Of a stretch of DNA of 27,901 nt, positions 3,577 through 18,517 are shown in pieces. Position 1 is the first letter of the stretch; the number at the start of each line of letters is the position of its first letter. The DNA lies in IMG/VR virus record IMGVR_UViG_3300037585_000205, positions 1 through 27,901 of that record. One strand, given 5' to 3'. Made by a program: the position numbers and the translations under genes. A model generated the notes under the pieces. That model had not been told where the DNA came from, ran no database searches, and was given only the letters and a program-made list of their open reading frames with translations. The DNA comes from a virus.

Positions 3577-4431
3577 CTATCCTACCATTCCTGGTTGGAA
3601 ACTTATTTCGGGATTATCTCTTGGTTTCTTTTCCCGTAACTCTAATACTTGGGCTACTGCCTTATCGTGATCTGGATGTGTCTTATTCCAGTAAGGCATA
3701 TTAGGTTGTGTTAATTCTGCAATTTGTTTATCAATTTCAATTGGTGATAATAAATTTGTATCACCCTCGGCACGAATAACATCCTCACCCATCTTATCAG
3801 CTATACCCATAAACATTTTTATAATAGCGGGATGATCTTTAAAGGCAGATCCATCCGCTAAAGGTATATTTAATATTTCTTCACTCGCAAAGGTTTGTGC
3901 TGCTTGTCTTGCTTTCATTACACTAGGATCAAATTGTTGTCCTAATTCTTTTCTTAGCTCTAACTCTTGCTGGTGTTTTTGTTGTTCTAAATCTCTTGTA
4001 TGAGCATCGGCTGCCCCTTTATTCATTTCAGTATAATAATCTAAAATGCCCTGGGCTTGTGAAGTAGATAATCCTAATTTATGAACAGATGTTTTAAAAT
4101 TATCCAAGGCTTCTGGATTATCTGTTTCATAATTTACTTCATAGTTTTTTGCATCATCTGGTCGCCCAGCAGCTGAATAAAAATTACTCCAATCTTCATC
4201 CGAAAAATTTTTATTTGGCTTAATCATTTTATCAGCTCCAATCATACTCTCCGCATTGACATAACTTTTTGCCAGGGATTCAATTGAGCTAAATTTTTTT
4301 AATGATTCATTTGATTGTAAATCTTCTGGTAGTGAAGAGATCCAAGTTGTTTCTTGTGGTGTTGCTGGTTGTTGGATTGCTCCAGGCTGCTCCGTTTGTT
4401 CTTCGGGGGCAGTTGTCTGATTTTCTTCCAT
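3577..4431 (-). CDS. Capsid scaffolding protein (putative)
   Basis: 284 aa, acidic, with a low-complexity Glu/Gln/Pro/Thr-rich N-terminus (residues 1-30) and a Gln/Glu/Lys-rich segment in the middle that is likely helical or coiled (around DLEQQKHQQELELRKELGQQ). The conserved pattern LPEDLQSNESLKKFSSIESL near residues 35-55 is common in phage scaffold proteins. It sits between portal/Bbp19-like and major capsid, the usual place for the scaffold. It overlaps the upstream Bbp19-like gene by 1 bp, indicating translational coupling. Confidence 0.75.
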   Translation of the reverse strand: MEENQTTAPEEQTEQPGAIQQPATPQETTWISSLPEDLQSNESLKKFSSIESLAKSYVNAESMIGADKMIKPNKNFSDEDWSNFYSAAGRPDDAKNYEVNYETDNPEALDNFKTSVHKLGLSTSQAQGILDYYTEMNKGAADAHTRDLEQQKHQQELELRKELGQQFDPSVMKARQAAQTFASEEILNIPLADGSAFKDHPAIIKMFMGIADKMGEDVIRAEGDTNLLSPIEIDKQIAELTQPNMPYWNKTHPDHDKAVAQVLELREKKPRDNPEISFQPGMVG

Positions 4432-4649
4432 TAGGTTTCCTTTTTGGTTATCATGTTAATAATATGAAGAACAACACTTCGCTGCCCCTCTCTTACAAAG
4501 GTTTCGTTTGCATTATCTGGTACAAATGTACTAACTGTAAAAAAACATCGTCTTTGTAAATCTGATAAAACTCTCTTACCCTCATCTGTATCAAATATAT
4601 GTTGGTAATCTTTTTTAAGTTGTTCTATTAATTTTTGTGCATCAGCCAC
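4431..4649 (-). CDS. Bbp19-like small virion-module protein
   Basis: 72 aa. The pattern DYQHIFDTDEGKRVLSDLQR followed by C and then FVREGQRSVVLHIINMI is the recognisable signature of the small protein family named after Bordetella phage BPP-1 Bbp19, found between portal and scaffold in many podoviruses. The start overlaps the end of the portal gene by 8 bp and the end overlaps the scaffold start by 1 bp. The biochemical role of the family is not established; position suggests a head-assembly function. Confidence 0.8.
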   Translation of the reverse strand: MADAQKLIEQLKKDYQHIFDTDEGKRVLSDLQRRCFFTVSTFVPDNANETFVREGQRSVVLHIINMITKKET

Positions 4650-8426: not shown

Positions 8427-8981
8427 TTATATCCAGTCTATTGTTGGTAATCCATTGTAATTAACATCATAAATAAACCAACCAAAAGCCATAAGACCTC
8501 TAGCCACTTCATCTCCTTGTTTTTTAAATGGAACTCGTCTTGAAAAAATTAAAACTTTTTCTAATTTTCTTTTATTAAATATTTGTTCTCTTCTTTTTAA
8601 ACCTTCTAAATAAGAAACTTTAGAAAGCATAACTACTTTTTTTTTAGCAAGTGTAAAAGCATGAGTTGTAAATTCTGTTGCTAAATTAAAAGGTGGATTA
8701 GTCACTATATTATCAACTTGTCTTGTTGATTGTAAAAAATCTATTCCTGTTTCTCCATATCCTCTATCAATTAAATCTGATGAATATACATCATATCCCT
8801 CGTTAATCATAAGTTTGGACATAGCCCCATTACCACAAGCACATTCCCAAATGTTGCCATCAAACTTTTGTCTATCCAAAAGTGATTGTGTTGCACCTAT
8901 TGGTGTAGGATAAAAATCGTTTTCTTCTCTATCATTATCTTTGTTGTGTCCAACATAAGCTAATGCTGAATTTTTTTTCAT
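8427..8981 (-). CDS. Phage DNA methyltransferase, probably N6-adenine type
   Basis: 184 aa class I SAM-dependent methyltransferase. NDFYPTP (residues 21-27) precedes the SAM-binding motif I ECACGNG (46-52), an acidic SSDL follows (67-70), and the catalytic NPPF lies at 95-98. NPPF/Y is typical of amino-methyltransferases acting on adenine N6. No restriction endonuclease is beside it, so it is likely an orphan enzyme that modifies the phage's own DNA against host restriction or marks it for packaging; target site is unknown. It sits between the terminase genes and abuts or overlaps its neighbours by 1 bp. Confidence 0.8.
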   Translation of the reverse strand: MKKNSALAYVGHNKDNDREENDFYPTPIGATQSLLDRQKFDGNIWECACGNGAMSKLMINEGYDVYSSDLIDRGYGETGIDFLQSTRQVDNIVTNPPFNLATEFTTHAFTLAKKKVVMLSKVSYLEGLKRREQIFNKRKLEKVLIFSRRVPFKKQGDEVARGLMAFGWFIYDVNYNGLPTIDWI

Positions 8982-9202
8982 TAATGTATTGTCTGTGAAA
9001 TACCCAATTGAGTATTCATGTTATTAATTCCAAATTGCTCCATTAGTAAATAACAAAGGCTCTTAGCCTCTAAGTCTGTATTAAAGCCTGTGAACTCTAT
9101 TGTTATTTTTTTAGTATCTTCGTTATAAATTAACGAGGCATAAAAGTTTTGTTCGTCTGTGTACGTCAATGTTTTGATCTCCCGATATATATATAAAAAC
9201 AT
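8981..9202 (-). CDS. Small unknown protein
   Basis: The open frame gives 73 aa from the ATG at 9200-9202, but that ATG has no ribosome binding site. An in-frame TTG at 9167-9169 has GGGAG 9 nt upstream and would give 62 aa starting TYTDEQNFYASLIYNEDTKK; this is the likelier true start. No family recognised. The end overlaps the methyltransferase start by 1 bp, which suggests coupled translation in the packaging operon. Confidence 0.55.
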   Translation of the reverse strand: MFLYIYREIKTLTYTDEQNFYASLIYNEDTKKITIEFTGFNTDLEAKSLCYLLMEQFGINNMNTQLGISQTIH

Positions 9203-11887: not shown

Positions 11888-12532
11888 ATGCACATAGCGA
11901 TGAATGACAAATTAAAAACTATAATAGAGGCTAGTACACTTACGCAAAAAGAAATAGCAGCTAAACTTGGTACTAATCAAATACATTTAAACAAAGTGTT
12001 AAATGGTAAAGCAAATCTTACAACAAGAATGGCTAAAAAATTAGCCACGATACAAGAATTAAAAACAAGTGAACAAGATCTAATATATCCAACATTACCA
12101 TTAGATATTGCTGGAGCTTGGTTTACTGGTCAAAAAGTTGAGAGTTTTAAAACTTCAAGACCACAGCTTTATGTACCAACTCCAATTAAAGAAAATTATT
12201 TTGGTTTAATATATCGAGGTCAATCTTATGAATCATCTAAATTTCATCTACCTTTACATGAGGGAGAGGTAATGGTTTTTGATGGTACTTATGAAAAACA
12301 TAAAAAAATTGATCCAGATGGAGTTGGAAAATTAAATGTTGTTGAAAATGATAATGGAGAATTATGGGTAGGTTGGCTTGATACTATAAGTAAAAAGACA
12401 GGAAAACATGGTTTTTCTCCATTAGGCAGTACAGCATGGCTAACTTGTAAGATAAAATGGTCATCAACCTTTATAATGGCTTGGAATTTAGCCAAATTAG
12501 AGGGTGTCGATAACCTAGTCCAGCTAGATTAA
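11888..12532 (+). CDS. CI-like prophage repressor
   Basis: 214 aa (or 210 if the ATG at 11900 is used; neither ATG has an obvious Shine-Dalgarno, so leaderless translation is possible). Residues about 18-46 form an HTH: LTQKEIAAKLGTNQIHLNKV, then LNGKANLTTRMAKKL. The C-terminal part (NYFGLIYRGQSYESSKFHLP, then LHEGEVMVFDG) has the layout of the LexA/S24 fold but not a canonical GDSM-type catalytic motif, so self-cleavage is uncertain. Position opposite a Cro-like gene and among shared operators indicates the lysogeny repressor. Confidence 0.78.
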   Translation: MHIAMNDKLKTIIEASTLTQKEIAAKLGTNQIHLNKVLNGKANLTTRMAKKLATIQELKTSEQDLIYPTLPLDIAGAWFTGQKVESFKTSRPQLYVPTPIKENYFGLIYRGQSYESSKFHLPLHEGEVMVFDGTYEKHKKIDPDGVGKLNVVENDNGELWVGWLDTISKKTGKHGFSPLGSTAWLTCKIKWSSTFIMAWNLAKLEGVDNLVQLD

Positions 12533-15467: not shown

Positions 15468-15533
15468 TTGCGTATCACTATTGACACCCATCAAAACCCA
15501 AATTATTTAAACATAATTAATTAAAAAAAAATC

Positions 15534-15557
15534 ACTGATACGCAAATTGATACGCAA
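15534..15557 (+). repeat. Left arm-type repeat pair
   Basis: Two TGATACGCAA decamers start 12 bp apart. The whole 24-bp block differs at one base from the block at 15740-15763 on the other side of the tRNA core. Probable integrase arm-binding sites. A third single decamer in inverted orientation lies at 15468-15477. Confidence 0.8.
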
Positions 15558-15595: not shown

Positions 15596-15634
15596 GTGAC
15601 AGGGCAGCGTTCTAACCAGCTGAACTACTCCCGC
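15596..15634 (-). pseudogene. 5' half of a tRNA-Asp(GUC) gene (attP core)
   Basis: Reading the minus strand from 15634: acceptor strand GCGGGAG, TA, D-stem GTTC, loop AGCTGGTTA, GAAC, G, anticodon stem CTGCC, loop CTGTCAC with anticodon GTC. This is 39 nt of a standard tRNA-Asp and stops exactly at the end of the anticodon loop; the next bases (AATGC) do not pair with CTGCC, and no T-arm or 3' acceptor strand follows. It cannot be a functional tRNA in the phage. After integration it would replace the 5' half of the host gene. Confidence 0.88.
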
Positions 15635-15650
15635 AACTGGATAAGCCGCT

Positions 15651-15679
15651 ATAATCCTAAACAAAATATTTTGCATCAA
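15651..15679 (-). promoter_or_regulatory. Candidate promoter upstream of the tRNA-Asp half gene
   Basis: On the minus strand TTGATG (15679-15674), a 17-bp spacer and GATTAT (15656-15651) form a plausible sigma70 promoter, each box matching 4 of 6 consensus bases. The predicted start near 15644 is about 10 nt before the first base of the tRNA half. It would give the rebuilt tRNA gene a promoter after prophage integration. This is a by-eye match in AT-rich DNA. Confidence 0.5.
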
Positions 15680-15739: not shown

Positions 15740-15763
15740 ACTGATACGCAAAATGATACGCAA
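15740..15763 (+). repeat. Right arm-type repeat pair
   Basis: Two TGATACGCAA decamers start 12 bp apart, in the same orientation as the left pair and with one mismatch over the 24-bp block. The pair lies 106 bp from the tRNA core on the integrase side and just before the operator at 15769. Confidence 0.8.
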
Positions 15764-15768
15764 AATTA

Positions 15769-15823
15769 ATTTGCATTTTTTGCGAACATCGCCTTGACAA
15801 TTAGCATTTAATGCTTATGTTAT
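15769..15823 (+). promoter_or_regulatory. Operator-controlled promoter of the integrase operon
   Basis: TTGACA at 15794-15799 is a perfect -35 box; TGTTAT (15818-15823, 18-bp spacer) or TATGTT (16-bp spacer) would be the -10. The dyad ATTAGCA-TTTAA-TGCTTAT fills 15800-15818, exactly the spacer. A second dyad ATTTGCA-TTTTT-TGCGAAC lies at 15769-15787, 31 bp upstream, the same spacing as before the exonuclease operon. A bound repressor would exclude RNA polymerase, so this operon should be silent in the lysogen. Confidence 0.75.
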
Positions 15824-16962: not shown

Positions 16963-17282
16963 TGAGTGAAAAAATTATTACACTTACTGATAAAGAAAGA
17001 CAATTAGCACAGTATTTAATTGATGTAACTGATGGAAGTAATGCAGTGATTTTTGAAAATCCTAAAAAATTAGGTTGGGATGTTAAAACTGCAAAAGGTG
17101 TTTTTGGATCTTTAGTTAAAAAAGATTTAATTTATCCAGATGATGCAATGCAAATGGATGATTATGTAGTTCATTATTGGACAGTTGATGTTGAAACCGA
17201 TGATCATGGAAGATTAATAGATACTGTTGATCAATTATTAAATGAAAAAAATAAAGTGGCTATTGCCAGGGAGGTTAATTAA
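16962..17282 (+). CDS. Small unknown protein, possible winged helix
   Basis: 106 aa. LTDKERQLAQYLIDVTDGSN, then NPKKLGWDVKTAKGVFGSLV and KKDLIYPDDAMQMDDYVVHY have the helix-helix-wing rhythm of a MarR-like or HTH domain that reads growth or chromatin state, but no clear family match. The upstream sequence GGAGGTTAATTAATG is nearly the same as that before the integrase gene. It directly precedes and overlaps int by 1 bp, so a role in controlling integration is possible. Confidence 0.5.
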   Translation: MSEKIITLTDKERQLAQYLIDVTDGSNAVIFENPKKLGWDVKTAKGVFGSLVKKDLIYPDDAMQMDDYVVHYWTVDVETDDHGRLIDTVDQLLNEKNKVAIAREVN

Positions 17283-18517
17283 TGGGTGAAATATTTTTAG
17301 CAAATAGCGGCAAGAGAAGTTTCCAGATGTTCTGGTATGATTGCCCTATTTTAAATAAACGAAGAAAAAAACAGGTTGAGATTACAAAAAAATTACCAGC
17401 AGCTGCTGCTTACGCAAAAGCAGAAAAATTACAAAAAGAACTAGAAAGATCTATTGATGATGGTAATTATACAGCTGAGGATAAACCTTTTGGATTTGCC
17501 CTGGATGAATTAGAAAAAATTTATTTATCTAAATGGGAGCTGCATCAAAAAGATCCAACAACTGGTTTAAGGGAGAGAACATATAACGAGTATATTGGTT
17601 TTTTAAATATAATTAGAGGTGTTAGTAATCATAAAATAAAGATTAAAAATAAAAAGATTTCTGATTATAAATGCAGCCAAATCACTCCAGATATTGCGGA
17701 TCAGATTTCCCAGGCATTAGTCAATCAAACTAATAAAAATCATAATACTAAATGCTGGGCAAAGTTTGAGGCTGCTTGTAAGTTAGCTGTTGTTAAAAAT
17801 TTTGGTATGAAAATAAATCCTTGTGCCATGGTTGATAGATCTAATCATCAATCCAAACAAAGAAAAACAAAGATAATAGCACCAAGTAAATCGCAGATAG
17901 ATCCATTTTTAGATCACCTGGAAGAGATTAAAAACAAAGGATCTAATAGTTGTCCTCGAAAAGATTACACTTCAAAATTTAATTATATCATTAACTTGTA
18001 TTCAAATCATACTGGCAAAAGATCTAATGAAATTTATGGAACGAGAATACAGGATGTTAATTTAGATAAAGGTATTGTCGAAGTAAACCAGGTTGTATGT
18101 GCCAAGTATGGAAACATTGAGCCAACAAAAACAGATAAATCTGAGAGGATTGTCGCTTTAACTGATAGATTAATTAAAGGATTACAAGAATGGTTGGCTT
18201 ATTTAAAAAATAAAAATATTCCAAATCCAAATTTAATTTTATTTCCAACAATGAATGGCAGTTATAGAAATGCATCCAATGTTTTAAATAGAAACATTAA
18301 AAAACCAGCCAAAGAGTTTGGTTTAGATCCATCAATGTTTAGTGTCCATCAATATAGACGACATAACAACAGTAGAAGAAAAGAGGCTGGACATGATGGA
18401 GATAGATTAAGAAATCAGATGGGGCATGAAGATGAGAAAATGACTAAATTGTATAACACTACCTGGGAAGATATTAAAAAAGATAGAGAAGATATAAACG
18501 AGGCTTTTTCGTCATAA
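17282..18517 (+). CDS. int: Tyrosine recombinase (phage integrase)
   Basis: 411 aa, normal length. It inserts the phage genome into the host chromosome and, with an excision factor, removes it. The N-terminus (residues 1-70) has the beta-rich arm-binding layout; residues about 70-190 form the SAM-like core-binding domain. The catalytic domain shows Arg247 (TGKRSNE), a Lys in the KTDKSERIVAL segment, His356-x-x-Arg359 (SVHQYRRH), His382 (MGHEDEKM) and the nucleophile Tyr391 (KLYNTTW). The gene ends the rightward operon and is followed by a terminator. The attachment-site candidate is 1.5 kb upstream rather than beside it. Confidence 0.92.
   Translation: MGEIFLANSGKRSFQMFWYDCPILNKRRKKQVEITKKLPAAAAYAKAEKLQKELERSIDDGNYTAEDKPFGFALDELEKIYLSKWELHQKDPTTGLRERTYNEYIGFLNIIRGVSNHKIKIKNKKISDYKCSQITPDIADQISQALVNQTNKNHNTKCWAKFEAACKLAVVKNFGMKINPCAMVDRSNHQSKQRKTKIIAPSKSQIDPFLDHLEEIKNKGSNSCPRKDYTSKFNYIINLYSNHTGKRSNEIYGTRIQDVNLDKGIVEVNQVVCAKYGNIEPTKTDKSERIVALTDRLIKGLQEWLAYLKNKNIPNPNLILFPTMNGSYRNASNVLNRNIKKPAKEFGLDPSMFSVHQYRRHNNSRRKEAGHDGDRLRNQMGHEDEKMTKLYNTTWEDIKKDREDINEAFSS

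Follow-up and report, generated by a model that had tools for sequence, protein, structure and literature searches.

The 5′ half of SAR11 tRNA-Asp as the probable attachment core of an integrase-encoding phage, and a related integration remnant behind which the tRNA gene is complete

Identification of a tRNA-Asp half as the probable attP core

The stretch of DNA analyzed here (the window) comprises 27,901 nucleotides (nt) of the virus record IMGVR_UViG_3300037585_000205 from IMG/VR and carries the 5′ half of a tRNA-Asp gene in the neighborhood of an integrase gene. Taken together, the observations are best explained if this half is the core of a phage attachment site (attP) that targets tRNA-Asp of SAR11 bacteria, with the tRNA rebuilt behind phage DNA upon integration, and this explanation is considered highly probable as a whole. 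The half is read on the minus strand from 15634 to 15596 (GCGGGAGTAGTTCAGCTGGTTAGAACGCTGCCCTGTCAC), and its 39 nt are identical to bases 1–39 of the complete SAR11 tRNA-Asp(GTC). An exact match of a 39-mer is judged not to be a matter of chance. The initial annotation had described a half that runs from the first base of the tRNA to the last base of the anticodon loop, and the comparison with SAR11 bears this out exactly: identity between phage and host stops at the last base of the 7-nt loop CTGTCAC (15596–15602, minus strand), beyond which the phage reads AATGCTG and the host GGCAGAGG. Compared with the 39 nt in the window, identity extends to 41 nt in one sister phage (L002) and in the phages with a second type of integrase (family B, see below). 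By analogy with known anticodon-loop integrases, the loop is predicted to be the 7-bp region of strand exchange.

Two further features of the window argue that the half is an attP core, as had been proposed. The word TGATACGCAA, a putative arm-type integrase site, occurs five times in the window, all copies lying inside attP, where 0.05 would be expected by chance. Two copies stand on each side of the core (15536–15545 and 15548–15557, 15742–15751 and 15754–15763, plus strand) and one farther out in inverted orientation (15468–15477, minus strand); the positions of the repeats are kept in the sister phages to within ∼12 bases. A tyrosine integrase of 411 amino acids (17282–18517, plus strand; PF00589, 9.6e-14; phrog_1 integrase, 2.2e-27), here assigned to family A, is encoded 1.6 kb from the half in an operon that points away from it. 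The third line of support, a natural remnant of a related element, is described below.

Under the proposed mechanism, the integrase would recombine the anticodon loop of the phage half with the same loop in the host tRNA-Asp. One side of the integrated phage would then consist of the host tRNA-Val followed by a dead 39-nt stub, and the other of a complete tRNA-Asp, its 5′ half from the phage and its 3′ half from the host, immediately behind phage DNA. The junction predicted for the phage in the window is ...TATAGCGGCTTATCCAGTT joined to complete tRNA-Asp, and the rebuilt gene, deprived of its operon promoter, would depend on a transcription start inside the phage DNA.

The host target is the second gene of a tRNA operon

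When GTDB species genomes were scanned for the 39-mer, it was found in 75 contigs, each from a different genome according to its title and all from SAR11 or SAR11-like alphaproteobacteria according to title and context. This search, suggested in the initial annotation, thus supports SAR11 tRNA-Asp as the target and the 5′ rather than the 3′ half as the part carried by the phage. At these loci, tRNA-Val(TAC) is followed by a 3-nt spacer and the complete tRNA-Asp, which is the single tRNA-Asp gene of the host; the one exception is an occupied site (L043). A 3-nt spacer leaves no room for a promoter of tRNA-Asp itself, and on the evidence of this layout the gene is cotranscribed with tRNA-Val, unless the tRNA-Val gene itself contains a start. 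Because tRNA-Asp is second in the operon, an element that carries its 5′ half cuts it off from the operon promoter, so that an attP of this kind must bring a transcription start with it. A promoter on the phage side would therefore be required by the gene layout rather than shown by sequence.

A natural integration remnant at the same site

The occupied site is found on a 422-kb contig (L043; AG-457-A08, CACKNC010000001.1), where the order is hup, tRNA-Val, a tRNA-Asp half (228–266), an insert of 2.06 kb, complete tRNA-Asp (2291–2367), and nuoA, the two protein gene names being our reading of the translations. Both flanks are colinear with unoccupied relatives (85–88% identity on the left, with hup and tRNA-Val; 77–87% on the right, from nuoA onward). 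At its end, the insert retains the C-terminal 58 residues of a family-B integrase (66% identity), and the locus is interpreted as a decayed prophage related to family B and not to the integrase family of the window. The initial annotation had expected a tRNA-Asp rebuilt behind element DNA in the lysogen; such an arrangement is seen here, in a remnant of the related second type, and not in a prophage of the window phage. Among the 75 contigs and 162 genomes of the order, no other rebuilt junction, recognizable as a 5′ half without the tRNA-Val spacer before it, was found.

The distance from the integrase stop codon to the tRNA is exactly 105 nt in L043 and in two family-B phages (L003 and L008), and in all three this gap contains a hairpin (−13 to −24 kcal/mol, z −3.5 to −6.5). 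The strongest is that of L043 (−24 kcal/mol, z −6.5), which has a T run behind it and was called as a terminator. If it does act as a terminator, the ∼70 nt of element DNA left before tRNA-Asp must contain its transcription start, and the start region in L043 is apparently still in service.

A different way of keeping the lysogen alive, known as tRNA-dependent lysogeny and demonstrated in mycobacteriophages (PMC10865867), would have the host tRNA destroyed and complemented by a complete tRNA-Asp elsewhere in the phage genome. We regard this as very improbable here. The core, ∼10 nt in such systems, has 39 nt here, which suffices for reconstruction of the tRNA; in L043 the junction itself restores the gene; and neither ARAGORN nor Rfam detected a complete tRNA in the window, itself a 27.9-kb fragment of the phage genome that bounds this result, or in any sister phage contig (up to 34.4 kb). 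A complete tRNA-Asp elsewhere in the phage had been named beforehand as an observation that would speak against reconstruction. The hallmark of tRNA-dependent lysogeny, a short non-rebuilding core combined with an entire tRNA of matching isotype encoded by the phage, is accordingly not what the window displays.

Several points weigh against reconstruction by the window phage as set out above. Its own integrase was found in none of the 162 genomes of the host order, and neither was a prophage of its family, and the only natural junction, L043, is of the family-B type. L043 belongs to a draft genome, from a single cell or a metagenome, in which 28 tRNAs were detected; a second tRNA-Asp could lie in its missing part. 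Promoter scores upstream of the half in the window are at chance level, those upstream of the family-B halves being weakly raised (reached by 6% of random windows for L003 and 15% for L008). Finally, the assignment of the host is indirect, drawn from the tRNA match and a portal protein ∼56% identical to those of pelagiphages.

Some additional features of L043 were noted. Just past the displaced half, positions 284–309 contain a perfect inverted repeat of 12 nt (CGAAAGATTTTT/AAAAATCTTTCG), a possible terminator for the tRNA-Val transcript left orphaned. The same genome (L095/L108) encodes a second integrase frame of 355 amino acids (contig C2, 1128–2202) on the 3′ side of another tRNA and on the same strand, placed as in an ordinary 3′-type island. 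A word shared by L003 and the left edge of L043 (CTACTATACGAAA) was too weak to use. Matches to the family-B integrase at 22–33% identity, many of them in frames of similar length (329 amino acids), were present in many SAR11 genomes and were set aside as, in our judgment, probably housekeeping XerC/D recombinases.

Two integrase families share the same tRNA half

The 39-mer was also found in eight other IMG/VR contigs, and a degenerate pattern search added a ninth (L012/L151) in which 37 of 39 positions agree. Relatives of the window integrase, which were found only in IMG/VR contigs, are encoded by six of these nine sister contigs (L002, L004, L005, L006, L009, and L012). The other three (L003, L007, and L008) carry a different integrase of 332 amino acids (PF00589; family B), located directly upstream of the half and on the same strand. 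The two families show almost no pairwise similarity (BLASTP E 0.027), and judged from their sequences, two very different integrases have arrived at the same tRNA half, an outcome that may be called convergent.

In L006, attP is mosaic (4400–4640): upstream of the core it resembles L005 and L009, downstream it resembles the window, and the switch falls at the tRNA half, consistent with recombination there. This exchange also bears on whether the half is an attachment site at all. Anticodon nucleases cut tRNA at the anticodon loop, which is where the half ends, and the half might on that account be a small RNA transcribed in the phage, for example as a decoy for a tRNA-cleaving defense. Such a role is scarcely credible given the exchange at the core in L006, the arm repeats around the half, the neighboring integrase, and the natural integration of a related element at exactly the same place.

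The arms vary together with the integrase. In L005 and L009, the arm word switches from GATACGCAA to ATCGTAGCA, the latter replacing TGATACGCAA, and the integrase N terminus of this lineage (read in L013, from the same contig as L005) differs from that of the window, as expected if the N terminus binds the arms. Two versions of the N terminus were seen when L013 (6001–7227) and L011 (812–2035) were set against the window (17282–18517); L013 carries the version that goes with the ATCGTAGCA arms, and the L011 contig is without its attP. These sequences suggest a joint exchange of the arms and the domain that binds them. In family B, no repeated word with four or more copies was found that could represent arm sites.

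Transcription of the rebuilt tRNA

A σ70-type promoter had been proposed upstream of the half in the window. Its words (TTGATG-17-GATTAT) are present at 15679–15651 on the minus strand, 16 nt ahead of the first tRNA base, but three scorings place them at the level of chance: they fall below the threshold of a consensus scan; with an Escherichia coli-type matrix, they are matched by 18% of random windows and 34% of shuffles; and a SAR11 tRNA promoter model finds nothing in the region (p 0.53). The last model was trained by expectation maximization on 63 tRNA upstream regions; it scores 56% of them above the 95th percentile for random host sequence. The proposed promoter was thus not retained.

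A better candidate, although suggestive only, is a TTATAGC block (15648–15654, minus strand) that may serve as a −10 region. It lies 12–13 nt before the tRNA half and is invariant in six family-A phages, representing about three independent lineages, whereas the flanking bases differ. In family B, the best match to the SAR11 model is TTTACA-17-TATATG in L003 (p 0.06).

It could be argued that attP contains no dedicated tRNA promoter and that read-through, from a phage gene or some other promoter upstream, supplies the transcript of the rebuilt tRNA-Asp. The lack of an above-chance promoter signal within 75 nt upstream in the window phage would fit this, as would the precedent of pTN3-like elements, in which the integrase promoter drives expression of the rebuilt tRNA (PMC8371274). 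We consider read-through unlikely because the integrase operon of the window phage reads away from the half, the TTATAGC block is conserved, and, in family B and L043, the strong hairpin between integrase and tRNA (z values as above) should block it.

If, instead, the start lies within phage DNA next to the half, these phages may carry an expression cassette for an essential host tRNA. In family B, its parts would be the terminator hairpin, the start region, and the 5′ half, arranged within the constant spacing described above. The chances appear about even that such a cassette exists in this full sense, that is, that the only tRNA-Asp of the lysogen depends on phage DNA and that the start region outlasts decay of the prophage as a permanent host promoter, as in L043. 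What L043 suggests at present is that such a start can outlive its prophage and become a promoter of the host.

Comparison with known systems

Phages that carry a 5′ tRNA half are already known, and the swap is rare. The statement in the initial annotation that most phages hold the 3′ end of the gene is correct in that the 5′ case is uncommon and overstated in that it is established. In T7-like cyanophages (P-SSP7, P-SSP2/3, S-TIP37, S-CBP1, and others), 39-bp attP cores correspond to the first half of tRNA-Leu, and integration there has been shown experimentally (PMC8776855). Among tRNA islands catalogued in Islander, 159 of 3919 (∼4%) carry a 5′ tRNA fragment (PMC4383910); as in the present case, the element holds the 5′ part, and, as in L043, the displaced 5′ fragment marks the far end. 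Islander is a catalogue of cellular genomes, and the likeness is one of description, none of its members having been compared.

The cyanophages differ from the window phage in host, in tRNA, and in having Autographiviridae genomes. Their integrases are not meaningfully similar to that of the window and resemble family B only weakly (P-SSP7, E 2e-7, 26% identity). In the records of P-SSP7, P-SSP2, and P-SSP3, an identical 39-nt half lies downstream of the integrase, with a TATAAT site 19–20 nt upstream of it (best random-window p 0.004–0.03). Most Synechococcus relatives carry a half without a TATAAT-type signal (records L198–L208, which cover P-SSP7, P-SSP2, P-SSP3, SS120-1, and Synechococcus phages). 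The promoter question thus arises in cyanophages as well, the Prochlorococcus podoviruses having a strong TATAAT and most Synechococcus phages none.

The pTN3-like archaeal integrases resemble the system proposed here in that element DNA, rather than the host promoter, provides for expression of the rebuilt tRNA (PMC8371274). There, however, the integrase gene is split and its promoter is used, whereas in the window phage the integrase is intact and is read away from the tRNA. Closer in host are the SAR11 prophages at tRNA-Leu (HTVC011P, HTVC025P, and uv-Fonsiphage-EPL), which share with the window phage SAR11 hosts, a tyrosine integrase, and a tRNA target. The last of these combines an 11-bp core with its own tRNA-Leu, which replaces the lost host function (PMC6811365), in contrast to the 39-nt core without a complete tRNA in the window. 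A full-length tRNA-Leu match was found after the integrase of HTVC011P, in line with its group (PMC6811365). In HTVC019P (L149), Rfam detects a tRNA (8949–9019, minus strand, 58.8 bits) that is absent from the annotation of the record.

The present case is new in its host and gene (SAR11 tRNA-Asp, second in its operon), in the apparently temperate phages related to HTVC010P, in the use of the same half by two very different integrases, and in the putative decayed prophage L043. SAR11 bacteria are among the most abundant cells of the ocean, and little is known of their lysogeny; with a probable integration site, occupied and empty sites become countable in metagenomes.

Phage relationship and lysogeny genes

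The portal protein encoded in the window is 54–57% identical to those of HTVC010P, HTVC034P, HTVC035P, Lederberg, and others. As the annotation of HTVC010P lists no integrase and the window phage has one, the latter would be a temperate relative. Together with the tRNA match, the portal suggests a temperate podovirus related to HTVC010P that infects SAR11.

The window also encodes a putative lysogeny repressor of the HTH_3 type (11888–12532, plus strand; PF01381, 5.1e-7; phage repressor/regulator PHROGs). A consensus scan detected a promoter-like site for the integrase operon, TTGACA-16-TATGTT (15794–15821, plus strand), which is almost invariant in six sister phages. Between its hexamers lies a 13-nt palindrome, AGCATTTAATGCT (15803–15815), which may be the operator of the putative repressor.
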